Shown piece by piece: positions 22,670 through 33,466 of a stretch of DNA of 64,000 bases (positions are counted from its first letter, which is position 1; each line of letters starts with the position of its first letter). The stretch is from Diaphorobacter sp. HDW4B (GTDB lineage Bacteria > Pseudomonadota > Gammaproteobacteria > Burkholderiales > Burkholderiaceae_C): assembly GCF_011305535.1 (NCBI RefSeq), contig NZ_CP049905.1, positions 3,035,001 through 3,099,000 of the forward strand, given 5' to 3'. Both the position numbers and the translations under genes were made by a program. The notes beneath the pieces are model-generated. The model did not search any database. It was given only the letters and a program-made list of their open reading frames with translations, and was not told the origin of the DNA.

Positions 22670-22745
22670 GGCCCGGTAGCTCAGTTGGTAGAGCAGCGGA
22701 TTGAAAATCCGCGTGTCCGTGGTTCGATTCCGCGCCAGGCCACCA
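22670..22745 (+). tRNA. tRNA-Phe (anticodon GAA), island attachment gene
   Basis: 76 nt with encoded CCA. The anticodon stem GCGGA/TCCGC encloses TTGAAAA, anticodon GAA. T-stem CGTGG/CCGCG has one wobble. The acceptor GGCCCGG faces CCAGGCC, which leaves a C5-A68 mismatch in an otherwise normal tRNA. The 3' half is the left attachment site of a genomic island: two further copies of its 3' end lie at 25635 and 33295. Confidence 0.95.
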
Positions 22746-22755
22746 CTTGATTCTC
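22701..22755 (+). repeat. Attachment repeat 1 (inside tRNA-Phe)
   Basis: A 55-bp stretch from the anticodon loop through the tRNA 3' end to ATTCTC. It is identical to 33295-33349, and from 22705 onward identical for 86 bp to 25635-25720. This is the left end of the island; a crossover here keeps the tRNA intact. Confidence 0.92.
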
Positions 22756-22757
22756 AG

Positions 22758-22787
22758 AAGCCCGTTCAAGAAATTGGACGGGCTTTT
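22758..22787 (+). terminator. tRNA-Phe terminator
   Basis: Stem GCCCGTTC (22760-22767) with GGACGGGC (22776-22783) and TTTT. The same terminator is repeated after attachment copies 2 and 3, so it travels with the att block. Confidence 0.88.
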
Positions 22788-22865
22788 GTCGTTCTGGCTT
22801 CCAGCAAAGTAGCTTGCCCGAACGTCAGGCGAACTCACTCAGCCACTGAGTCAGTTCTTGTCTCT

Positions 22866-23117
22866 CTACGACTTGCTCACGCCTTCAAGTGCCAGCAATA
22901 GTCGCGCACATTGATCGTCTTCACAGTACAGGTAGGCGAGGGGCACACCAAGTGTTTCTGCAATCAATCGTGCCGTCTTCACCGGGAGCTCATGCGTCCT
23001 CAACTCATATCGGCTGATCCGAGCACGGCTCGACGATTCTTCAATGCCGATCAGCACCTCCACTTTTTCCTGAGACCAGCCCAGCTCCTCACGTCGTGAT
23101 CTCAAATGGCGGTTCAA
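22866..23117 (-). pseudogene. XRE-family regulator, C-terminally truncated (copy A)
   Basis: 83 codons. An N-terminal XRE-type helix-turn-helix is readable (SRREELGWSQEKVEVLIGI, then ISRYELRTHELPVKTARLIA). The related copy at 25755-25955 continues for 14 residues after the shared GVSK (PQRDKKLTQWLSEFA), but here CCGCAG has become TCGTAG, giving a stop, and one base is missing just downstream. The DNA-binding half is intact, so the protein might still bind DNA. It lies directly after the tRNA terminator, on the opposite strand. Confidence 0.7.
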
Positions 23118-23568
23118 GATCTTGCCTTGCGTCAGGTTGGGGTTCGAGTCTTTTGGCTGATTGAAAAGGGATTGACTATCGCGGCTGTCTCGATACTAGC
23201 CAAGCAATTCTATGGGAGACACGCTTAGCAGGCGGCTGAAATACTGATTGATTTCTAGTTGAAAATTTGACCAAACAGGAGTGCCTTACCCCTTGCCTGT
23301 CTCGAAAGAATCGCTTGTAGGACGTTCTACTCGATTGGGGATTTTTCGTGGCAAGTGTCTGGGGGATTTTGGCAGTCCGTTAGGCAAGAAAATCAGGGCG
23401 AAGTCTTCGAACATCCTTTTGAATGGTCGCCCATAGGCATGGATATTTCCAATTCTGTGTCGCAGGTTGTTGAACAATTTTGAACAATCATGCGATTTCT
23501 GCTGGAGGAGGGTGAATTGTGACAGTTATATGTAGAATTTATTACTCCTCGAAATTGGTAGTTATTTC
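23118..23568. other. AT-rich intergenic stretch in unit 1
   Basis: About 450 bp with low GC compared with the chromosome. I find no convincing gene. It should contain the promoters of the xre remnant (leftward) and of the sorting-signal protein (rightward). There is no clear Shine-Dalgarno just before 23569. Confidence 0.5.
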
Positions 23569-25278
23569 ATGGAAAAAATTACACTTGATACATTCATGAT
23601 AAATCCACGGAGAGCGCATTTGCCGACGGGCGCCCTAGTCACAGGGCTTCTGGGACTTGTCCCCGGTAAAATGGCGTTTGCGCAGTCAGCTGCATCATGC
23701 TCCGTGAATTTGGTTTACACGGCAGAGCCAGTGGTCCCCCCAGCCGCTGTGCCGTCACTCTCGGGCTTTGGCTTGGCGTTGCTGCTTCTGGGGGTGCTTG
23801 CCTTAGCTTGGCGCCAACTGGCAATCACTGGCAGGGTGGCCTCGCTGATGATGGGCTGTGTGCTAGCCTTGAGCGCGATGACACCCACAGACCTGATGAG
23901 TCAGGTGTTGACCGCATTGTCGCTGGACAGCAGTTCTGGCGGCACGCTCAGCATCACTGGTACCAACGCCAATACCGTCAAAAATAATACCAACGTCTTG
24001 CTCAAAATTACGGCGCTGACTCCGGGCACCGGCACCAGTTTGTTGAGTCCTCCCACAGACTGTGTGGTGGGCACTCAACTGTCGCCTAATCAGAGCTGTA
24101 CTGTGCAACTTGCCTGTGCCAGCGCCGGTCCTGTGGTTCCTGTTGTTACGGCTGTGGATGATACGGCCAGCTGGCCTGCCGGTGCCGTTGGCGCCAACTC
24201 AGACGTAACGCCAAACGACTCTTATCCACCAGGAAGTTTGTTCACGTTGCAACCCGGCGGCACCTGCACCAACTCCAGCGTAAGCAACACCGGCACGGCG
24301 ACCTACGATGTGCCGGGAAGCGGCAATTGCACAGTGAATTATCAGGTTTGCGCACCGTCACCCAATGCCGCCGTGTGCAGCACAGCTGTGCTGACCGTCA
24401 TTCCTGTGGTTCCTGTTGTTACGGCTGTGGATGATACGGCCAGCTGGCCTGCCGGTGCCATTGGCGCCACCTCAGACGTAACGCCAAACGATACCTATCC
24501 ACCAGGAGGTTTATTCACGTTGCAACCCGGCGGCACCTGCACCAACTCCAGCGTAAGCAACACCGGCACGGCGACCTACGATGTGCCGGGAAGCGGCAAT
24601 TGCACAGTGAATTATCAGGTTTGCGCCCCGTCACCCAATGCCGCCGTGTGCAGCACAGCTGTGCTGACCATCATTCCTGTCGTTCCTGTGGTTCCCGTCG
24701 TTACTCCTGTGGATGATGAGGCCCTTCAGCTTGCGAATACTGTTGGCGCCACATCAGACATAACGCCAAACGACACCTATCCGCCAGGAAGTCTGTTCAC
24801 TTTGGAACCCGGCGGCACCTGCACCAACTCCAGCGTGAGCAGCACCGGTATGGCGACCTACGATGTGCCGGGGAGCGGCAATTGCACAGTGAATTATCAG
24901 GTTTGCGCCCCCTCACCCAATGCCGCCGTGTGCAGCACTGCGGTGCTGACCGTGAACACGAAGTGTCAGTATGACTTTGATTTATCTTGGTATTATTTCG
25001 GTACTGATGGAGCTACCCATGTGGTTGGGCTGCCTACAGATGCGTTGGTTTTGAACACGATCGAGCTCACTATCGATAATGGGACGCCGTTTGCCAGTGG
25101 ATTTACTTACGGGCCCGCATCTTTCACCCTCTTCGACGGAGTGACATCCTCCTCCACCGCTGCTGGCCTGTCCTGGGTGCCGGGATCGGCTGGATCGCCA
25201 CCGGCTCTGACGGATGAGAACACCCCTGTGCACGTTAGATATGAGGGAGTTTGCGGTGGTGGTGGGGGCAACAACTAA
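23569..25278 (+). CDS. Repeat-containing exported protein with internal exosortase (XrtH-type) sorting signal
   Basis: 569 aa. A signal peptide (about 1-38, cut near AFA-Q) is followed by a short mature part. Then comes a sorting-signal-like block at 62-83: PSLSGFGLA, a Leu-rich helix and W-R. Such tripartite signals normally end a protein and are cut by exosortase; here it is internal, as in the family called midcut-by-XrtH in Burkholderiales. A second helix spans 89-104. Residues 188-463 are three near-identical repeats of about 91 aa; the C-terminal 105 residues have Gly-rich end GGGGGNN. It would end up at the cell surface, function unknown. Start uncertain; ATG 23596 is an alternative. 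No exosortase gene is in the window. Confidence 0.75.
   Translation: MEKITLDTFMINPRRAHLPTGALVTGLLGLVPGKMAFAQSAASCSVNLVYTAEPVVPPAAVPSLSGFGLALLLLGVLALAWRQLAITGRVASLMMGCVLALSAMTPTDLMSQVLTALSLDSSSGGTLSITGTNANTVKNNTNVLLKITALTPGTGTSLLSPPTDCVVGTQLSPNQSCTVQLACASAGPVVPVVTAVDDTASWPAGAVGANSDVTPNDSYPPGSLFTLQPGGTCTNSSVSNTGTATYDVPGSGNCTVNYQVCAPSPNAAVCSTAVLTVIPVVPVVTAVDDTASWPAGAIGATSDVTPNDTYPPGGLFTLQPGGTCTNSSVSNTGTATYDVPGSGNCTVNYQVCAPSPNAAVCSTAVLTIIPVVPVVPVVTPVDDEALQLANTVGATSDITPNDTYPPGSLFTLEPGGTCTNSSVSSTGMATYDVPGSGNCTVNYQVCAPSPNAAVCSTAVLTVNTKCQYDFDLSWYYFGTDGATHVVGLPTDALVLNTIELTIDNGTPFASGFTYGPASFTLFDGVTSSSTAAGLSWVPGSAGSPPALTDENTPVHVRYEGVCGGGGGNN
24130..24959 (+). repeat. Three in-frame tandem repeats (273-282 bp units)
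   Basis: Units start at 24130, 24403 and 24685, each with CCTGTGGTTCC and ending after GTGCTGACC. Units 1 and 2 are almost identical at the DNA level; unit 3 is more diverged in its first third and unit 2 has a 9-bp extension (one more VVP). Each encodes an Ig-like surface repeat with four Cys (GGTCTN, GNCTVNYQVC, AAVCST). Not CRISPR: units are too long, coding and unspaced. Confidence 0.92.
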
Positions 25279-25634
25279 TTTGCCAAGGAAAGCCGCTGCG
25301 ACAGTGTGGGGGGAATTCACCTGTTACGGGTGTCAGTGGAGTCGTTCTGCGGCTGTTGGAACGCACCATACCTCCCTGGATTCGCCGAGGTCGCCGGAGC
25401 CCGCGCTTTGACTCCGGCGGCAGTCCCCCCCAGCATTTCTTGCCACGCTACGTTGCCGCTGGTGTTCTGCCCAATCGCGCTTGACCCTACTCGTGTAGGA
25501 CGGCGCGTAGTCCGACTTGCCCTTGGTCTTGCTTTCCCACTGGACGGGCACACATCTGTACGGCCGTAGAAAAGGCTCGCTGAGGAGCGCGATCTTCTCA
25601 TCGGTGGACAGTCTCGATGGCTCAGCAGATGTTG
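25279..25634. other. Right end of unit 1, no supported gene
   Basis: About 355 bp before attachment copy 2. The minus strand is open for about 70-120 codons in two frames, but neither gives a product I recognise, and the longest one reads through the tRNA-derived repeat. It might be the decayed end of a gene, possibly a lost integrase, but the sequence does not show this. Confidence 0.45.
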
Positions 25635-25720
25635 AAATCCGCGTGTCCGTGGTTCGATTCCGCGCCAGGCCACCACTTGATTCTCAGAAGCCCGTTCAAG
25701 AAATTGGACGGGCTTTTGTC
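25635..25720 (+). repeat. Attachment repeat 2 (internal)
   Basis: 86 bp identical to 22705-22790: tRNA-Phe 3' end, CCA, and the terminator hairpin. Upstream the match stops at once (one A is missing from the anticodon-loop run), so only the 3' part of the tRNA is present and no functional tRNA is made. Homology to unit 1 continues, with substitutions, to about 25955. Confidence 0.92.
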
Positions 25721-25754
25721 ATTTTGGCTTCCAGCAAAGTAGCTTGCCCGAACG

Positions 25755-25955
25755 TCAGGCGAACTCACTCAGCCACTGAGTCAGCTTCTTGTCTCTCTGC
25801 GGCTTGCTCACGCCTTCAAGTGCCAGCAATAGTCGCGCACATTGATCGTCTTCACAGTACAGGTAGGCGAGGGACACACCCAGTGTCTCTGCAATCAATC
25901 GCGCTGTCTTCACCGGGGGCTCATGCGTCCCCAGCTCCGAGCTTCGTGATCGCAT
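25755..25955 (-). pseudogene. XRE-family regulator with its HTH deleted (copy B)
   Basis: 66 codons, homologous to copy A at 22866-23117. Alignment by eye shows an in-frame loss of 27 codons: SRSSELG joins directly to THEPPVKT, while copy A has the helix-turn-helix between these. The C-terminus is complete (SKPQRDKKLTQWLSEFA), unlike copy A. Without the recognition helix it should not bind DNA. Together the two copies preserve a full gene but neither is whole. Confidence 0.7.
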
Positions 25956-25999
25956 GCATCACCCAATCACTGACGTTGTTCGGCTGGGTTCGAAGAACA

Positions 26000-26347
26000 T
26001 CAGCGCAATCGATCACACAGCCGCTTCACAACATCCGTGACAAGTGCTCGATCATTGGGCGTCAAATCGGAAAGCCATGCGCTGATGCGCGTCGCTTGAT
26101 CATCAGGAGCTGTGGAGCTTTCCACCAGTAACTCCCCAATGCTGGCCCGCAGCACTTGAGCAAGCTTTTCGAGCGTGTGCAGTGACGGTACCGTCGCTCC
26201 TCGTTCAAAGCGGCTAATTGTTTCTGGCTCAACCTCAATGCGCTCGGCCAGTTGCGCCTGAGTCCATTGCCGGGACTTTCGCAATTCTGCGATTCGTACT
26301 CCCAACAATTCTGCTAACGGCTTGCTTGTCGCCTTCTTCTTGACCAT
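26000..26347 (-). CDS. XRE-family transcriptional regulator
   Basis: 115 aa from ATG 26347. The helix-turn-helix is clear: RIAELRKSRQWTQAQLAERI, then VEPETISRFERG and PSLHTLEKLAQVL, the classical Cro/C1 pattern. The C-terminal 45 residues are helical. A GTG at 26386 would extend the N-terminus by 13 residues; neither start has a good Shine-Dalgarno. It reads away from the membrane-gene operon at 26712, so it likely controls the shared region between them and may act as the element's repressor. Confidence 0.85.
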   Translation of the reverse strand: MVKKKATSKPLAELLGVRIAELRKSRQWTQAQLAERIEVEPETISRFERGATVPSLHTLEKLAQVLRASIGELLVESSTAPDDQATRISAWLSDLTPNDRALVTDVVKRLCDRLR

Positions 26348-26711
26348 ATCTGTCCATTTGGAATTCGACAGTAATGGTTGTTTCACGTTGAAGATTCAGC
26401 CAGAATCTAATTTGTTGAAATAGACATTATTTGTCATGTACTGTGACGTCCGATTTGCCAGCCTCATATGCCGCTAGGCGCGTTTGGCGGAGGCGCTGCA
26501 ATGCGACCTGACATCACATGCACAGAGTCAGTACGTTCGCCTCGCTCTACCCATTCATCTGAATCTGTCCCCCGAATTGCACAGCACTGTTGCAGCACGC
26601 TTGTGCGTCGCGGTTGGCTCGGCGGGGGGCATCTTGGGCGCGTTTGCGCGAGCGAGGTCATTTCATTGATCAATCAATTCATTCATCAACCACCTGAAAG
26701 GAGTCAACGCA
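26348..26711. other. Divergent control region of unit 2
   Basis: About 360 bp between the xre gene and the three-gene operon. The left 110 bp are AT-rich and include a short dyad GTCA-N7-TGAC around 26435-26449, a possible repressor site. AAAGGAG just before 26712 is the Shine-Dalgarno of the operon. No gene is supported here. Confidence 0.5.
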
Positions 26712-27092
26712 ATGGAGTACGAATACAAGGTCATCGACGTGGCCGATGGGGCGATCAGCTCGCTCCTGCTTGGAGAGGGCCGGATCGAAACCGAAGTGCT
26801 GGAAGCCTACATCAATGCCATGGCGTCGGAGGGCTGGCGCTTGGTGTTCATGGAGAAGGTCATGCAGCGGCACCTTGTCGTTGCAGACAGGGAAACCTTG
26901 ATGGTCACTTTTGAGAGGCGGGTGCCGGAATCCGAGCGTGCAGCAAGAGCAGCCAGATGCATTGACGACGTGATCCATGCGGAGGACGTTGCCAAGCGCA
27001 GGGGCCGTGGAGCTGCTATCGGGGCAGCGGGCGTGGTCGTTGGCTCTGCTGTTGCGGGGTCAGTGCTGAACAACCTACTGAGCGAGGAATAA
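26712..27092 (+). CDS. DUF4177-like small protein
   Basis: 126 aa. It begins MEYEYKVIDV and has NAMASEGWRLV near residues 36-46, then a beta strand (LMVTFERR), which together resemble DUF4177 proteins, a small family of unknown function. The C-terminal 45 residues are a basic stretch followed by a Gly/Ala/Val-rich segment (RGRGAAIGAAGVVVGSAVAG) that could insert in or lie on a membrane. A strong AAAGGAG precedes the ATG. First gene of a three-gene operon; the next gene starts 1 bp after its stop. Confidence 0.65.
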   Translation: MEYEYKVIDVADGAISSLLLGEGRIETEVLEAYINAMASEGWRLVFMEKVMQRHLVVADRETLMVTFERRVPESERAARAARCIDDVIHAEDVAKRRGRGAAIGAAGVVVGSAVAGSVLNNLLSEE

Positions 27093-27093
27093 A

Positions 27094-27546
27094 TTGGATC
27101 TGAACACAAAGATTGCCGAGCGAAGGGCGGAGCTTCAAAGGGAACAGGCCGCTGAGATTGAACTCAGGCGCAGCGAGGAGAGAGCGCAAGCCCAACTGAG
27201 ACAGGCAGAAGAAAAGGCCATTCAGGAATCAGTCCAGAAGGAGGCTGAACAACAGATTCAGGCGATCGAGAGCCGACTGCAAGGCAGCGCAACGGCTGAA
27301 CAAGATGAGCCGGTAAGCCCAGCGGCCCAGAAGAAGGTCGATGCGCATATCCGCTCGCTTGCAAACAAGCGATTCACGAAAGGAGAGAACTGGACGCAGG
27401 GCTTGCTTCTGGGCGGTTGCGTCATTGGATTCTTCATCGCGTGGTGGATTGGCGTGTGCTTGCTTGTTTTGGCAGGCTACTACATCACCAAAGTCACAGA
27501 GCGTCATGAAGCCGAAATCAGAGCAGAGATAAAGAAGGGAACATAG
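27094..27546 (+). CDS. Coiled-coil protein with C-terminal membrane hairpin
   Basis: 150 aa, TTG start 1 bp after the previous stop with GAGGAA just upstream. Residues 1-65 are a highly charged heptad-like coiled coil rich in Glu, Gln, Arg and Ala. After a linker, about 103-133 form one long or two short membrane helices (LLLGGCVIGFFIAWWIGVCL), then a charged tail with further heptads. No known family is recognised. It sits between two other membrane-related genes and is translated with them; a scaffold or adaptor role is only a guess. The third gene starts 0 bp after the stop. Confidence 0.7.
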   Translation: MDLNTKIAERRAELQREQAAEIELRRSEERAQAQLRQAEEKAIQESVQKEAEQQIQAIESRLQGSATAEQDEPVSPAAQKKVDAHIRSLANKRFTKGENWTQGLLLGGCVIGFFIAWWIGVCLLVLAGYYITKVTERHEAEIRAEIKKGT

Positions 27547-28176
27547 ATGAAGAGGATTTCAACTGCGATCATTTTTGTGGGCATCGCCATGCTGATCTTT
27601 GCCTTGAGCAGCGATGTGGCGCTGGATGGAATGGGAGGAAGGCGGATCACGAACTATGGACTGATGCACGACCGCTTGGTCAACACCATTCTGAGCGTGA
27701 CGATGATCCTTGGCGGCTTGCTGCTGAAGATGTTCGGAGGGCCTCTGTCAGGGCCGCATTTGCAGGCCATCGATCAGTTGCCAAAGAGCGAGTACATCGC
27801 ACGCTGGGCCACAACCATTTTGGTATCGGCCTGTGTTTGGACGCTGGTCGTGATGTACCTCTGGCCCACAACCTTGGTAGCGGTTACGTTGCTTGCTGTG
27901 ATTGCGTGGTGCTCGTTCCTGCCGCAAGCGACCTACACCGTACTCAAAAGAGTGTGGCTCGGGGCACTGCTGCTTGCCTTGGTCATGGTGATATGGCATG
28001 GGATCGCGCTGGCCAAGCCATGGTTCAATGACTTGACATACAGATTGATCGATAAAGGTGTCACCTTGCTTGGCACAGGTGACTTGCCACCCCTGTTTGC
28101 TGCATTGCTTGGTGGCCCTTTACTGATCGCTATCGCTGGATTCACCGTGTCCATGCGCAAGGCCAGACGCAACTGA
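27547..28176 (+). CDS. Polytopic membrane protein of unknown function
   Basis: 209 aa with about six hydrophobic segments (about 7-20, 45-63, 86-104, 108-127, 136-155, 181-201). Between the first two lies GGRRITNYGLMHDR, which resembles a short motif (G-R-x-x-N-x-G-L-M-x-x-R) seen in many small bacterial membrane proteins of unknown function. The C-terminus is basic. It begins immediately after the preceding stop and is followed by a terminator, so it closes the operon. Confidence 0.75.
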   Translation: MKRISTAIIFVGIAMLIFALSSDVALDGMGGRRITNYGLMHDRLVNTILSVTMILGGLLLKMFGGPLSGPHLQAIDQLPKSEYIARWATTILVSACVWTLVVMYLWPTTLVAVTLLAVIAWCSFLPQATYTVLKRVWLGALLLALVMVIWHGIALAKPWFNDLTYRLIDKGVTLLGTGDLPPLFAALLGGPLLIAIAGFTVSMRKARRN

Positions 28177-28193
28177 CCATCTAACCCTTCATC

Positions 28194-28231
28194 ACCCGCC
28201 CTGGAGAAATCCTCGGCGGGTTTTCTTTTTT
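28194..28231 (+). terminator. Terminator of the three-gene membrane operon
   Basis: Stem ACCCGCC with GGCGGGT (28194-28200 with 28215-28221) and an inner pairing, followed by TTTTCTTTTTT. It clearly separates the membrane operon from the next gene. Confidence 0.88.
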
Positions 28232-28247
28232 CACCACAAGGAGTTCT

Positions 28248-28598
28248 ATGCATGTGTACGCGGATTCAGACGCTATCTATCTGGCCCAAGCCGCAGTCAG
28301 CGGGACGGAGCTGGGTGAGTTGATTGGACGCTGCATCGAGGAGCTGGAGCCTTATGACGTCCCCGATCTGGGTTCCCTGATCAAGGTCTTGGTCGTGGAG
28401 CCTGACGACGATATGACGGCAGTCGATGGAGCGCTGGGCTTCCCGCTTCTGGATCGTCAATGTGACGTGGCACAGCGCCATCAGGATTGGTTCGAGCTGA
28501 CCTTGGTGCTCAGTGATGACGGCTTTGGAGTCGTCCTCTATGTGCCGCGAAACGCTGACCCAACATTGCTGTCCTATTGCCATCGCGCCACCCGCTGA
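28248..28598 (+). CDS. Small acidic hypothetical protein
   Basis: 116 aa. CAAGGAG precedes the ATG at good distance. The product is acidic, without membrane helix or signal peptide, and has an alternating alpha/beta pattern (ELGELIGRCIEELEPYDV; LIKVLVVEPDDD; WFELTLVLSDDGFGVVLYVP). I recognise no family. It lies between two terminators, so it is its own transcription unit or is read from a promoter within the small gap. Confidence 0.65.
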   Translation: MHVYADSDAIYLAQAAVSGTELGELIGRCIEELEPYDVPDLGSLIKVLVVEPDDDMTAVDGALGFPLLDRQCDVAQRHQDWFELTLVLSDDGFGVVLYVPRNADPTLLSYCHRATR

Positions 28599-28612
28599 GG
28601 TGGCATTTTTTT
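28587..28612 (+). terminator. Terminator overlapping the stop of the preceding gene
   Basis: GCCACC (28587-28592) pairs with GGTGGC (28599-28604); the stop codon TGA lies in the loop. A run of eight T follows after one A. A ribosome finishing the gene would cover the stem, so termination and translation could interfere. Confidence 0.8.
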
Positions 28613-28656
28613 GGACGCGATGTTTTCGCCACCTTATTTGAAACAACGGAGAACTC

Positions 28657-29058
28657 ATGAACGACCCCATCAAACCCCTGTACACCGGCGACTGCCCATC
28701 AGTCTCTGGTCGCAGCACGCTGACCTACATCGTGGGCAAGCACGAGACCGAGAACACCTTGCACCTGCGCATTGCCGAGAACAGCGGCAAAGGAATGTGG
28801 TGCAACGAATGGGCCTCGGCTCAGGCCATTGAGGCGATTGTCAGCAAAGAGCCCAAGCTGAAAGCCAGAAGCTTCTGCGCCCTGCACCCGGGCAAGTCCA
28901 TCAACACCGGAGGCTTTGTGCTGGCGGCACTGCGGGATCTGGGCTTGATCCGCAGCAGTGAGGCAAACACGCGCATTCATGAACACGTTCCGAAAGCCAC
29001 TCTGGAGAACGTCGTGATGGCAAAGACCCGCCGCAAGAAGCCCAAGGAGACGATCTGA
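28657..29058 (+). CDS. Hypothetical protein of the island
   Basis: 133 aa, preceded by an ACGGAGAA Shine-Dalgarno. No known domain is recognised. It has strand-rich N-terminal half with SGRSTLTYIVGKH, then GKGMWCNEW, a helix around SAQAIEAIVSK, and a basic C-terminus (MAKTRRKKPKE) that could bind nucleic acid or a membrane. Its stop overlaps a possible start of the next small gene as CTGA. Confidence 0.65.
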   Translation: MNDPIKPLYTGDCPSVSGRSTLTYIVGKHETENTLHLRIAENSGKGMWCNEWASAQAIEAIVSKEPKLKARSFCALHPGKSINTGGFVLAALRDLGLIRSSEANTRIHEHVPKATLENVVMAKTRRKKPKETI

Positions 29059-29222
29059 CATCGAGCATTTTCGCTGCCCTGCTCACGGTCTTTGTACTGG
29101 GGCTGTGGTTCAACTGCACGCGACCCATGTCGATTGCAGCAGCCGCAAGCCTGACCTTTATGTATCCGCAACTGCTGGTGCTTGTCCTCATCGGGGCTGC
29201 ACTGGTCTACCTAAGAAAGTAA
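29055..29222 (+). CDS. Small two-helix membrane protein, probable CTG start
   Basis: 55 codons. The frame has no ATG/GTG/TTG upstream of its first hydrophobic segment, but AAGGAGA (29044-29050) lies 4 nt before CTG at 29055, which overlaps the previous stop as CTGA. The product would have two membrane helices (FAALLTVFVLGLWF and LLVLVLIGAALVYL) split by NCTRPMS, ending YLRK. An internal ATG at 29127 would give only the second helix. Continuous hydrophobic coding and the well-placed ribosome site argue for a real gene; the CTG start is inference. Confidence 0.5.
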   Translation: MTSSIFAALLTVFVLGLWFNCTRPMSIAAAASLTFMYPQLLVLVLIGAALVYLRK

Positions 29223-29225
29223 ACC

Positions 29226-29378
29226 ATGAACCTTGATCATTGCATTTTTGAAGCTGCCCAACGTGTCCTTGATATGGACGGCCTGCCAGATGAGTTGTTG
29301 CCACTGGTGATCATCTCGGAAGTTGCGCCCCTGCACGGCCTCGATAGTGGTCCGCTGGCGGGCACGGGGTGGAGGTGA
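29226..29378 (+). CDS. Small hypothetical protein
   Basis: 50 codons, ATG 3 bp after the stop of the previous small gene. The sequence MNLDHCIFEAAQRVLDMDG, then LPDELLPLVIISEVAPL, looks like an amphipathic helix pair. There is no clear ribosome site except overlap with the upstream frame, so it would be translated by coupling. The last codons run into the GC-rich block. Unknown function. Confidence 0.45.
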   Translation: MNLDHCIFEAAQRVLDMDGLPDELLPLVIISEVAPLHGLDSGPLAGTGWR

Positions 29379-29660
29379 GGAGGGGGGCCATGGCCCGCCC
29401 CCGGTCGCTGCGCCTGCGCACAACCTGGCCCCCACTCGTGGCCCCCGCCGGGTCGGCCACCCCCCGGCCCCGCCGCCCGCCCGGTGGGGGTGCCCCCTGC
29501 AGGGTGCCGCAACATCCGCAACAGCGCCACGCCACGGCCCGGGCCCATGTCAGGCATGGAACGTTGCGGCGTTGCGGATGTTGCGGCAACTGGCGGGAGG
29601 CCCCCCGGGGGATATAGAAAAACAAGGGGGCTTGGTCCCCCGTCCTTATATATATTTTTT
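29379..29660. other. Very GC-rich block with structured repeats, no supported gene
   Basis: About 280 bp dominated by G and C runs (for example GGGGGG near 29382 and CCCCCC near 29458 and 29601). Frames are open on both strands simply because stop codons are rare. It contains the inverted heptamers at 29506-29587 and ends in a hairpin GGGGG/CCCCC (29626-29641) followed by TATATATATTTTTT, a possible terminator. Confidence 0.6.
29506..29587. repeat. Perfect 17-bp inverted repeat with five GTTGCGG heptamers
   Basis: GCCGCAACATCCGCAAC (29506-29522) and its exact reverse complement (29571-29587), separated by 48 bp. The heptamer GTTGCGG occurs at 29563, 29571 and 29580, and inverted (CCGCAAC) at 29507 and 29516. 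Such clustered short repeats suggest a protein-binding array, for example an origin or operator for the ATPase/integrase element, or a long RNA stem. Confidence 0.8.
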
Positions 29661-30218
29661 CCTTGCGATCTGCATTCGCTGTCTGCACACGGCGAATTGA
29701 GATGTGCTGAATGTCACAACTAATTGACCTTCAATTTTATCGGATAATTTTTTGATTAATCCATTATTTAGTTGACATTGTTTTACATTTCATAATAAGG
29801 AATGATCACGCAGTTCATATGGAGCTGACTCCCTTGCTGAAGGCACTTTAAATACTGAGCTCTCGTTTATTAAGGCTTAACGGTCGATATTTGAAGGGGG
29901 GTGAAGTTGCCTTGAAAAATGCAAATACAGTGCTGGAAGGTACTCTGGAAAGGGATTTTCTATTTCTACTGCTGGAAATACTTTATTCATTAGGTTTTTT
30001 GAGTTCAGTGCTGAAAGCGCGTTAGCTCCTGTAGGTCATGTTTTTTCGAGTTTTTGGGGAAAACGGCTGATTTTTTGCGAAAAATCGTATGTCATAGTTC
30101 GTCCGGATTTGCTTGAAATGCAGGGCAAATTCAGGTTGGCCAACCTTCTTCTCCGCATATAGCTGGGTGCAGGGATTCCCCCCCGAATCTCAAACTTCAC
30201 ATTGAAATAGGATGGACC
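29661..30218. other. AT-rich region before the ATPase gene
   Basis: About 560 bp, strongly AT-rich and without a supported gene, directly after the GC-rich block. TTGACA occurs at 29772-29777 with AT-rich sequence 15-18 bp downstream, a possible promoter. A GC-rich repeat array next to an AT-rich stretch is a common look of replication origins. Only a weak Shine-Dalgarno (AATAGGA) precedes 30219. Confidence 0.5.
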
Positions 30219-31448
30219 ATGACGAGAAAAATGAAACCAGTAGCCAATGCCGTTGGAAAAATGTTCGACGATGGCGGTCTAGAACCCTGCTCGCAACCTG
30301 TCGATAAAAATGCATTGATGGGAGATTTGATCAAGTTGATCAAGAAATATGTCGTGATCTCAGACCAAGCTGCTCTGGCAGTGTCGTTGTGGATCATTCT
30401 CAGTTGGAGCTATAAGGAATTCACACGCTGCCCGCTTCTCCTGATCAACGCACCGGAACGAGAGTGCGGCAAAACTCAGTTGTTGAAGGTTGTAGAGAAG
30501 TTGGTGTGTCGTCCCTTTGAAACAGCCAATATCACGTTGGCAGCTCTTTTCAGAATGATCTCAAACCATGGCCCGACCTTGCTGATCGATGAAGCCGATA
30601 CGTTTGTGGCTGGCAAAGATGAGCTGATCGGCGTCGTGAACAAAGGCTATGAATTTGGCGGGTATGTCGTGCGCGTGGAGAACATCAATGATGAGATGCT
30701 CGAGTGCGCGTTCTTTGTCTATGGCCCTAAAGCCTTGGCAGGGATTGCTCTTGAGCGGCATCTGCCCGACGCGACCATGAGCCGGGGCATCCAGGTGCCC
30801 ATGAGGCGTAAGACGAAGGATGACCACATCGAGCGGCTGCGAACCATTGATCCAGAGGCCATCAAGAATCTTCAATCACGCATCCTGCGGTTCGTTATGG
30901 ATCACAAAGAAGTCTTGAGCAAGGGCTGGGACAAGCTGCCTGAGCAGCTCGGTGACCGCCAGCAGGACAACTGGGAGCCATTGCTCGCAATCGCCCATTG
31001 CATGGGGCTTGATTGGTACGACAAGACGGTCGAGGCGGCGCTTGCTATCTGCGTCGAAACGAGTCCTCCGAAGTCTGCCGCCAACCAATTGCTGGAGGAT
31101 ATTCGTGAGGTGTTGAGCGACTATAAGAAGGGCCCGTACATTCCAACGGCAACGTTGTTGGCAAAGCTGCTTGAACACCCCGATATGGATTGGGACAAGT
31201 ACAACCGTGGGAGCTCCATGTCATCGCGGCAATTGGCCCGCAACTTGAGCGGCTATGGGGTCAAGCCCAAGACCGTGCGCATGAGTGCAAAGGAAACCCC
31301 CAAGGGCTATGAGGTGCGTGATTTCCAGGATGCCTTTGATCGCTATCTTCCTGAAACGGTATTCGACCCTGACGCCCCTGAACATGCAGGGCCGGGCTTT
31401 CAGCCCGTGGGCATGTCTACGGCAACTTACTCCATCCCGGCGCTCTGA
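30219..31448 (+). CDS. DUF3631-type P-loop ATPase, probable replication protein
   Basis: 409 aa. The P-loop is an altered Walker A, APERECGKT (78-86), followed by Walker B LLIDEAD (121-127); an Arg-rich block GIQVPMRRKTKDDHIERLR lies near 191-209. The C-terminal half matches the pattern of DUF3631 proteins (WEPLLAIAHCMGLDW near 248, SSRQLARNLSGYGVKPKTVR near 338), which are often fused or linked to primase domains in mobile elements. It probably remodels DNA or a primase during replication of the excised element. The last 30 residues are low-complexity. The integrase follows after 173 bp. Confidence 0.8.
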   Translation: MTRKMKPVANAVGKMFDDGGLEPCSQPVDKNALMGDLIKLIKKYVVISDQAALAVSLWIILSWSYKEFTRCPLLLINAPERECGKTQLLKVVEKLVCRPFETANITLAALFRMISNHGPTLLIDEADTFVAGKDELIGVVNKGYEFGGYVVRVENINDEMLECAFFVYGPKALAGIALERHLPDATMSRGIQVPMRRKTKDDHIERLRTIDPEAIKNLQSRILRFVMDHKEVLSKGWDKLPEQLGDRQQDNWEPLLAIAHCMGLDWYDKTVEAALAICVETSPPKSAANQLLEDIREVLSDYKKGPYIPTATLLAKLLEHPDMDWDKYNRGSSMSSRQLARNLSGYGVKPKTVRMSAKETPKGYEVRDFQDAFDRYLPETVFDPDAPEHAGPGFQPVGMSTATYSIPAL

Positions 31449-31515
31449 GCGCACTGCGGTTTCGACTAGATCGATGTTTTTGATCACGTCACAAGCCGCA
31501 CGGTAGGGGGTCTCA

Positions 31516-31552
31516 AACCTGTCTCGCGACGGGTTCCTCTACCTTCTTTTTT
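31516..31552 (+). terminator. Probable terminator between ATPase and integrase genes
   Basis: AACCTGTC (31516-31523) pairs with GACGGGTT (31528-31535) with one G-T wobble, loop TCGC. A pyrimidine-rich tail with a final TTTTTT follows. Confidence 0.65.
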
Positions 31553-31621
31553 CAATCCCAAGTGTCACGCCCCCTTTGTCTGGGGCTAGGCACTGCTACG
31601 TCCAAACACAAGGAGACTCCT

Positions 31622-32773
31622 ATGCCTGTTGTGCATTTCACCCCCGCCTTCATGGCAACCGGTCTGGTGTGCCCACCGGACAAGAAGAAGATCGAGTACA
31701 GCGTGGCCGATACCCCCGGCCTGTTTGTCGAGTGCAGGGCCTCCAAAACTGCCGTGCCTACGTGGTATCTGCGCCTGAAGAACGAGAACGGTACCAACTG
31801 CTATAGAAAGCTCGGCACGATCGATGATCTGACCCTCGTGCAGGCCAAGAAGAGAGCTGCACAGATCAAAGCCGAGCATCTGCTGATGCAGAAGGAAGAG
31901 GAGGTCATCAAGCAGAACCCGGGTCAAATGACCTTGGACAAGTTCTTCCATGAGCACTACATGCCGCATGCGAAGCAGCACAAGCGATCGTTCAACCGGG
32001 ATGAGTCCTTGTACCGGGTTCACATTGCGCCTGTTTTCAAGGATCTGCCGCTGCAGTCCATCTCTCGCCGTGAGGTGCAGAAGTTCCACAATGACCTGCG
32101 AGAAAAGAAGGGACTCAGTCCTGCGTCCGCCGATCACGGTGTCCGGTTGATGTGTCAGTTTCTGAATCTGGCCCTGAAATGGGAGTTTGTCGAGAAGAAT
32201 GTGCTCAGGAGCATTGAGCTGTTCAAGGTGGACAACCAGGTCGAGAACTACCTCGATGAGGAGCAACTGGGTCGCCTGCTGCATGTCCTGAAAACGGATC
32301 ACAACCGGCCAATCTGTCACATCCTGATGTTCCTGCTCAGTACAGGCGCACGCTTGAACGAGGCGCTGGCAGCGACATGGGACAACGTGAACGAGGAAAC
32401 CCGGACATGGAAGGTGGATGCCAAGCGATCGAAGTCCAAGAAGCCGCGATTCATCCCGCTGAATGACTCGGCCATGTGGGTGCTGGGGGAGCTGGAAAGG
32501 AAGTCAGAGTATCTGTTCCCTTCGCCTGTGACATACAAGCCCTACACAGCGATCACTTGGCAGTGGTACCGGATCAGGGAGCTGGCTGGGGTGAATCTGC
32601 GTATCCACGATCTGCGGCACACGTTTGCATCCTTCTTGGTGTCCAACGGGCGCAGCCTGTTCGAGGTGCAGCAGATCTTGGGCCATAGCGATCCCAAGGT
32701 GACGATGTGGTATGCGCATTTGTCGTCCAAGGCATTGCAGGAGGCGGCTAACGCTGGGTCGATGATTGTGTAA
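31622..32773 (+). CDS. int: Tyrosine site-specific integrase
   Basis: 383 aa. It catalyses recombination between the tRNA-Phe site and the element. An N-terminal arm-binding domain (about 1-95) and a SAM-like core-binding domain (about 105-190) precede the catalytic domain. Catalytic residues: R244 (STGARLNEAL), H329 and R332 (HDLRHTFAS), H355 (GHSDPKVT) and nucleophile Y364 (MWYAHLS). AAGGAGAC precedes ATG 31622; the upstream open frame overlaps the terminator and is rejected. All catalytic residues are present, so the enzyme should be active. It lies 520 bp from the right att copy. Confidence 0.95.
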   Translation: MPVVHFTPAFMATGLVCPPDKKKIEYSVADTPGLFVECRASKTAVPTWYLRLKNENGTNCYRKLGTIDDLTLVQAKKRAAQIKAEHLLMQKEEEVIKQNPGQMTLDKFFHEHYMPHAKQHKRSFNRDESLYRVHIAPVFKDLPLQSISRREVQKFHNDLREKKGLSPASADHGVRLMCQFLNLALKWEFVEKNVLRSIELFKVDNQVENYLDEEQLGRLLHVLKTDHNRPICHILMFLLSTGARLNEALAATWDNVNEETRTWKVDAKRSKSKKPRFIPLNDSAMWVLGELERKSEYLFPSPVTYKPYTAITWQWYRIRELAGVNLRIHDLRHTFASFLVSNGRSLFEVQQILGHSDPKVTMWYAHLSSKALQEAANAGSMIV

Positions 32774-33294
32774 GGGGTGCCCCGATTGCTTGGAGGTGGT
32801 CGGGGCAGTGACTCAGATCGGCCAACGGCTCAAAAGTGTCTAGGGAATCAGGGGCGATTCAAGTGACGAAGGCTGCGGTGACCGCAAGGCACTTCGGTGC
32901 GGTCGTTCGAGCCATTCAAGCTAACAGATACATAAACGACCGCAAACTGGCTCAGAGCATTTGCTCGCTCGCTAGGTGGAGAAGGTGGCAGTTGCTGCAC
33001 AGCAGGCTTAGATCGAGGCCCCGCAAATGACTCAACGCATGTAAATGCGATGAGTGCGACTCTCACCGGCAGCGCCAAGGCAACGCAACTGACCCTGGAG
33101 CCGAGCCGTTCGGTAGAGTTCGTCACAACCGAGCGCCACTGCATTGATTTACATGACGAAAACCGAGACCGAGTCGAAAACAGTAGCAACCGTTTGGCGT
33201 CAGGTTCGGAACGGACGCAGGAAAGACACTGAAAACTGAAAAAATTGCTTGTAAATCTTCAACTTACGGCATAAATGCGAATTATTTCGCTGTT
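32774..33294. other. Right end of the island, no supported gene
   Basis: About 520 bp between the integrase stop and attachment copy 3. A hairpin TGCCCCGA/TCGGGGCA (32778-32785 with 32800-32807) just after the stop lacks a T run. The rest has inverted and direct short repeats but nothing I can name; integrase arm sites would be expected here. The last 60 bp are AT-rich. Confidence 0.5.
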
Positions 33295-33349
33295 TTGAAA
33301 ATCCGCGTGTCCGTGGTTCGATTCCGCGCCAGGCCACCACTTGATTCTC
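33295..33349 (+). repeat. Attachment repeat 3 (right end of the island)
   Basis: 55 bp identical to 22701-22755, followed after two changed bases by the same terminator stem-loop (33354-33381). It marks the displaced original 3' end of tRNA-Phe and the return to chromosomal sequence. Confidence 0.92.
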
Positions 33350-33466
33350 TAAAAGCCCGTTCAAGAAATTGGACGGGCTTTTGTCGTTCTGGGGGCGAGG
33401 TTTTTCGCTCTGCCGTGATCCGTGCTGAAATGCGCAGAGATCAACTTTGCTTTCCGGGAGTGGCTG

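Follow-up and report, generated by a model that had tools for sequence, protein, structure and literature searches.

Why is a single tRNA-Phe gene of Diaphorobacter sp. HDW4B followed by two further copies of its own 3′ end? Do these copies border two mobile elements, and can each of the two still move by itself? The window analysed here is a stretch of 64,000 nucleotides (assembly GCF_011305535.1, contig NZ_CP049905.1, positions 3,035,001 to 3,099,000). Coordinates below are those of the window, and features lie on the plus strand unless stated otherwise. The tRNA-Phe (GAA) gene was located by ARAGORN at 22670..22745, directly after a gene which I take to be ntrX-like from its sequence. Behind it lies an island made up of unit 1 (22746-25634) and unit 2 (25635-33294). 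The answer that I favour, with a probability of roughly two in three, is site-specific accretion at the tRNA-Phe gene: unit 2 would be a small integrative element, unit 1 a decayed relative, and the composite would move mainly as one.

A repeat search of the window placed a 55-nt stretch at three positions: 22701-22755, 25631-25685 (95% identity) and 33295-33349 (100%). On recounting, the identity of copies 1 and 3 spans exactly 55 nt, starting at 22701/33295 with no base further left, and that of copies 1 and 2 spans exactly 86 nt from 22705/25635. Exact repeats this long are not expected by chance, and the observation of three copies is confirmed. The original prediction, made by a model from the letters of the window, had given a 55-bp tRNA-Phe end at 22701 and 33295, an 86-bp copy at 25635 and homology of the first ~300 bp in both units. 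Both lengths were reproduced to the base, and the homology holds at 93-99% identity, with one block at 22705-22854/25635-25784 (150 nt, 99%) and the next at 22855-23006/25786-25937 (152 nt, 93%). It was also found that copy 3, past a short spacer change, matches copy 1 again over 40 nt (33353-33392, 100%), through the terminator; this continuation was absent from the prediction. As attachment (att) sites, copy 1 (c1, 22701..22797) consists of the anticodon loop TTGAAAA, the tRNA 3′ half, a spacer and an intrinsic terminator. Copy 3 (c3, 33295..33392) has the same loop, the tRNA 3′ half and the host's own terminator, and the chromosome follows it. Copy 2 (c2, 25635..25727) has the tRNA 3′ half and a terminator, and its loop reads GTTGAAA (25631-25637). 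Compared base by base, this loop differs from that of copies 1 and 3 at 3/7 positions; read with a gap, it has lost one A and its left neighbour has changed.

Is the island an insertion? The genome of the window (G000) is 6.2 Mb in 2 contigs and is rated 100% complete. When the locus was compared across species, the tRNA 3′ half proved to be single-copy in all five further genomes of the genus, of which G005 is just 83% complete. Among these five, G004 provides a clean two-sided empty site, in which the tRNA and the terminator are followed by the sequence found after copy 3 (window 33481 on, with a sigma-factor-like gene). G001, G002 and G005 also have a single copy, yet the sequence right behind it is unlike the window flank, and they are not clean empty sites. 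In G003, the left arm of the element (as far as window 22932) comes after the single copy; behind it lie a DUF1304-like ORF (open reading frame) and three IPTL-CTERM proteins scoring over the curated cut-off. No relative of the window integrase was found in G003 at E 1e-60 or better. The G+C content is 55% in both units versus 61-63% in the flanks. As it contains an integrase gene and has direct repeats of the tRNA 3′ end on either side, the island has the make-up of a tyrosine-integrase element of tRNA-Phe. The proposal that the island integrated at the tRNA gene and has an additional att copy inside is borne out by the repeats and by the empty site in G004.

Unit 2, between copies 2 and 3, is the integrase-bearing element. 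It begins with a second, truncated copy of a helix-turn-helix (HTH) repressor gene, of which the 3′ part is present (25755..25955, minus strand), and a different HTH_3 regulator of 128 aa (26000..26386, minus strand). The latter stands upstream of the gene of a DUF4177 protein (26712..27092), where a relative in G326 carries an 83-aa repressor; residues 1-99 of the DUF4177 protein are 89% identical in the G326 element. Four small ORFs (27094, 27547, 28248 and 28657; together 27094..29058), a DUF3631 protein of 409 aa (30219..31448) and an open tyrosine integrase gene (31622..32773, 383 aa from ATG) follow, and the right (P) arm lies at 33053..33294. Counting G000, 17/399 family genomes have a match to the integrase at E 1e-60 or better, and 12 wide regions were examined out of 18 places outside G000. 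In five of them the integrase relative has 53-72% identity and adjoins tRNA-Phe, with a copy of the tRNA-Phe 3′ end in the region (G264, G326, G152, G012 and contig 1 of G299). The other seven regions (44-54%, including a split 54% match in G370) contain no such copy within 4 substitutions. The G299 integrase lies outside the last detected tRNA copy, and this element therefore looks damaged. The DUF4177, DUF3631 and 83-aa repressor genes, orf28248 (matched in 9/12 regions) and orf28657 (10/12) recur as neighbours of the integrase relatives, in sets that vary.

Unit 1 begins with the left (P′) arm (22746..22934), which is the minimum common to unit 1, unit 2, G003 and a fossil junction at 557 kb described below. 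A complete 83-aa HTH_3 repressor-like gene (22866..23117, minus strand) has its counterpart in the G326 relative next to the DUF4177 gene, in divergent orientation. The cargo of unit 1 is a midcut-by-XrtH (NF033207) exosortase substrate of 569 aa (23569..25278), scoring 65.7 bits against a cut-off of 45. The next ~140 bp (25333-25473) are without assignment. They adjoin a fragment of a TOTE primase/helicase gene, near the start of that gene (25474..25629, minus strand), which ends at copy 2. Here, ~150 bp left of copy 2 (25474-25626) match the early part of ~800-aa proteins (relic residues 2-52), which belong to the AEP-TOTE primase and helicase families in the two examples scanned. The fragment looks frameshifted by my reading of the three frames. 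It was matched in 43/299 family genomes at E 0.01 or better, many of them weakly; a plasmid search gave 3 records, with helicase genes, and a phage search gave no match. The match runs nearly to copy 2, where the first ~45 residues of the relatives are missing; ahead of the match the relatives are variable, which prevents an exact placement of the break.

No integrase was recognised among the proteins of unit 1. What was recognised is the repressor, the midcut gene and the TOTE fragment, and no transfer gene, as in a cis-mobilizable element (CIME). CIMEs, according to the review PMC5704250, have lost their integration and transfer genes and kept both attachment sites, attL and attR. In unit 1, c1 is intact, and c2 keeps the tRNA half with an altered loop and has no match to the P arm. 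What both units have in common is restricted to the first ~300 bp, which comprise the attachment arm and one repressor gene's 3′ half, and no further repeats between them were found. Of the suggested "two tandem related elements", the relatedness of the left ends stands, while the units themselves are not comparable.

What, then, is copy 2? Its left flank matches neither the P arm nor the compared loci outside G000 (blastn, word size 7, E 0.1). A divergent P arm was rejected at these settings, and so was a decayed tRNA 5′ half, as 27% of 2000 shuffles reached its local alignment score. Since it shows no match to the arm on the integrase side and its core is mismatched, copy 2 looks chimeric, and its sequence is probably that of an impaired att site and not of a working border.

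The genome has a fourth copy of the tRNA end (91%) at G000:C1:557 kb, 2.5 Mb from the island, where there is no tRNA. Here the core joins two sequences, one related to the right arm (window 33053-33294) and the other to the left arm. When the left arm of copy 3 was joined in silico to the right arm of copy 1 or of copy 2, each product gave a one-piece alignment of ~500 bp with the fossil at L033, at 89.4%. The left flank of copy 2 joined to the right arm of copy 1 aligns over the right (P′) half only. The fossil thus represents the attP (the attachment site of the free element) expected for this family of elements, neither arm of which is found on the left of copy 2. About 1.65 kb past the fossil lies a paralogous repressor-midcut block with a midcut protein of 475 aa. 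It is 85% identical to unit 1 over 22832-24669 and 97% over 24412-25331. Insertion-sequence ends and transposase-like ORFs were seen by eye at the flanks of the fossil region (L033:13435-17716; G000:C1, ~553-557 kb).

What follows on the sequence of events, the point of crossover and any activity is inferred from this arrangement. The tyrosine integrase of unit 2 would cross over in the anticodon loop, which matches the 7-bp overlap of such enzymes as given in PMC8371274. The attP of unit 2 would bring a tRNA 3′ half and a terminator; since it carries both, the tRNA stays whole, its 3′ half coming from the element once integrated. Unit 1 may be the decayed rest of a related element, from which the integrase and the right end were lost while the left arm, the repressor and the cargo gene stayed. 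By the likeliest route, the integrase might have joined a look-alike site in the TOTE gene of unit 1 to the old junction, and this recombination would have deleted the right end and the integrase of unit 1 and left the chimeric copy 2. That the identity of copy 2 starts inside the loop points to the integrase and not to general recombination. The composite should excise, because the loops of copies 1 and 3 are identical and the P arm is present at copy 3; by c1 × c3 recombination, 10.6 kb would move mainly as one piece, with unit 1 as a passenger. Excision of single units should be weak, since copy 2 has a mismatched loop and lacks a P arm of its own, and single-unit excision through c2 would be rare.

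Several points weigh against this accretion history. The left side of copy 2 is no recognisable element end. The fossil fits the right arms of c1 and c2 equally and does not tell which was used. No relaxase, conjugation or capsid family was found among the scanned island proteins (10 in each of two scans), oriT (the origin of transfer) lying outside the search. Finally, 99% identity over the first 150 bp of c1 and c2 stands beside different unit contents, and gene conversion or duplication of the left end, instead of two integrations, could account for this.

The last point leads to the rival that survives best, which is nevertheless unlikely. Homologous recombination could have duplicated the left end: the repressor-midcut block would have been copied from, or along with, the paralog at 553-557 kb into the left end of a single element, so that copy 2 would be a by-product and only one integration took place. 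The 99% likeness of the c1 and c2 arms across 150 bp speaks for it, as does the collinearity of unit 1, from 22832 to ~25331, with L033:15573-13435 (85% over the first part and 97% over the last 920 bp). However, general recombination does not predict that the identity of copies 1 and 2 starts within the 7-nt anticodon loop, and at the paralogous locus the left flank of copy 2 is found for its first 62 bases only. Quite improbable is the suggestion in the original prediction of two functional tandem elements, each excising by itself. Stacks whose units keep their own arms do exist, in G288 (near-identical units) and in G152. Here, however, unit 1 has no recognised integrase, and c2 has no P arm match and 3/7 loop mismatches to copies 1 and 3; base mismatches between recombination partners are typically strongly deleterious, according to PMC10865867. 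An assembly error as the source of the third copy is hardly credible: repeats are a classic source of misassembly, but copy 2 is unlike copies 1 and 3 in loop and arm, its left flank is unique in the genome apart from 62 bases of the midcut end, and the genome is in 2 contigs and rated complete.

Is such stacking common? The pattern of the tRNA 3′ half (at most 3 mismatches) was found in 338/399 family genomes. At least two copies in one direction are present in 32/399, on one contig in 26 by hand count, and at least three copies at one locus in 3/399 (G000, G152 and G288, also by hand count). G288 is a clean tandem of two 8.9-kb units that are 99.5% identical, in which the inner and the far core have the same left-hand sequence; these units are located at L186 (G288:C1:2074000-2093999). 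G152 has four copies and three units with different ends. Outside the family, stacks were found in G429 (one tRNA and two 3′-end copies) and G572 (one and three). In G202, two copies of the tRNA-Phe 3′ end stand 126 bp apart (L181, G202:C4:109234-109404), perhaps a minimal remnant.

The accretion proposed for the window has precedents, and the explanation is mostly an ordinary one: a CIME-like accretion at a tRNA gene, of a known kind, with a degenerate internal att site. Decay to a CIME followed by accretion, with a chimeric internal att site, is described in the review PMC5704250. The window resembles the accretion of CIMEs with integrative mobilizable or integrative conjugative elements treated there in its direct att repeats, its integrase-less unit beside an integrase-bearing one and its chimeric internal att. 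In contrast to those cases, no arm belonging to the active integrase is seen at the right att of the passenger here, a mobilization gene was not recognised, and the cargo is an exosortase substrate. The Dehalococcoides ssrA islands, as presented in PMC3146451, are likewise stacked at one RNA gene with direct repeats between them, and some lack integration modules; they use a serine recombinase and tmRNA (transfer-messenger RNA), whereas a tyrosine recombinase and tRNA-Phe are involved here. With the tRNA-targeting temperate phages of PMC10865867, the window shares a common core in which the tRNA 3′ half rebuilds the gene, but no phage structural gene was found among the proteins scanned here, and the att site here adds a terminator. 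The locus indicates how an integrase-less passenger can become locked to an integrase-bearing neighbour at a tRNA gene, as read from the empty site, the relatives and the fossil junction.

Do other elements at tRNA-Phe also bring a terminator? In the window, the terminators of the three copies lie at 22758-22797, 25688-25727 and 33353-33392. Hairpin-plus-T terminators were scored in the 75 nt behind the tRNA end in 25 of the 26 one-contig genomes, with a scoring and a cut-off (at least 15) of my own; G202, whose copies are 126 bp apart and whose tRNA copy scored 0, was excluded. Element-side copies are all copies except the one farthest from the tRNA, by position alone. The cut-off was reached by 27/29 element-side and 22/25 distal copies, and by 0/29 and 1/24 controls, respectively, taken 200 nt further on, and by 5/580 shuffles. 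In 5/25 genomes (G000 itself, G006, G016, G065 and G367), the 60 nt that follow the tRNA copy clearly resemble those that follow the distal copy (0.74-0.93), and in the other 20/25 the similarity is at most 0.61. The yardsticks are ~0.52, a value not exceeded by 95% of 500 shuffles (13/25 pairs lie above it), and ~0.57, not exceeded by 95% of 600 cross-genome comparisons (7/25 pairs lie above it). Thus, most of the terminators are not copies of the distal one, and some likeness beyond base composition stays.

A replication outside the family comprised 8 genomes and 20 copies, chosen by me. A score of at least 15 was reached by 10/12 element-side and 5/8 distal copies, 0/20 controls and 4/480 shuffles. 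G453, G660 and G688 have a complete tRNA gene as their far copy, which may therefore not be an element border; without G453 and G660, the element-side figure is 8/10. In G461, neither copy has a terminator. Elements at tRNA-Phe appear to bring the tRNA 3′ half and a terminator of their own, which points to a simple rule: such elements must carry a stop signal besides the tRNA end. Whether this extends to a complete module is evenly balanced in my view. In this bacterial order, the attP of tRNA-Phe elements would hold a full "tRNA 3′ half + private intrinsic terminator" module, and each insertion would replace the tRNA end and its stop. Stacks would then leave rows of cassettes, and selection for the module would keep dead units such as unit 1 recognisable. 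Identity reaching beyond the tRNA end has been noted before. In the open-access literature searched, a terminator within a tRNA attP was not found, and the word "terminator" has 0 occurrences in PMC10865867 and PMC8371274.

Some further features of the island may be mentioned. The 10 island proteins scanned (further small ORFs lay outside the scan) match regulators, integrases and PHROGs of unknown function only; there is no capsid, terminase or tail gene among them and nothing that marks a prophage. Defence models gave regulator-type matches only, in 2/10 proteins. A plasmid search gave 21 records, with likeness to the tRNA alone among the 20 matches listed, and a phage search gave one record, with a 35% relative of the DUF3631 protein. 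Ahead of the DUF3631 gene, a GC-rich stretch with a 45-nt inverted repeat (80%) at 29487-29606 could be an origin or a control site. Right behind the integrase gene, 32822-32861 is 92.5% like the end of an element at L033:11626-12859 that is IS3-like by eye. A search for arm-type binding sites as short repeats gave no 8-10 nt repeat common to P and P′ and one 8-nt repeat within P.

The midcut gene contains three 273-nt repeats (24129-24956), the others being 97% and 86% identical to the first; the paralog has two. Among the 6 genomes of the genus, strong midcut matches were found only in G000, at two loci, and G003 has two weak ones. No IPTL-like motif was found in 12 other island regions (11 of them from other genomes), PEP-CTERM lying outside that scan, and the open-access literature searched gave nothing relevant on IPTL-CTERM with exosortase or on midcut/XrtH. 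The sorting enzyme XrtH is encoded in 5/6 genomes of the genus, including G000, the exception being the incomplete G005. Exosortase-type substrates (midcut-XrtH, IPTL-CTERM and PEP-CTERM) stand beside tRNA-Phe in G000, G003 and G012 (window 23569-25278, L035:9351-14855 and L063:16047-16694).

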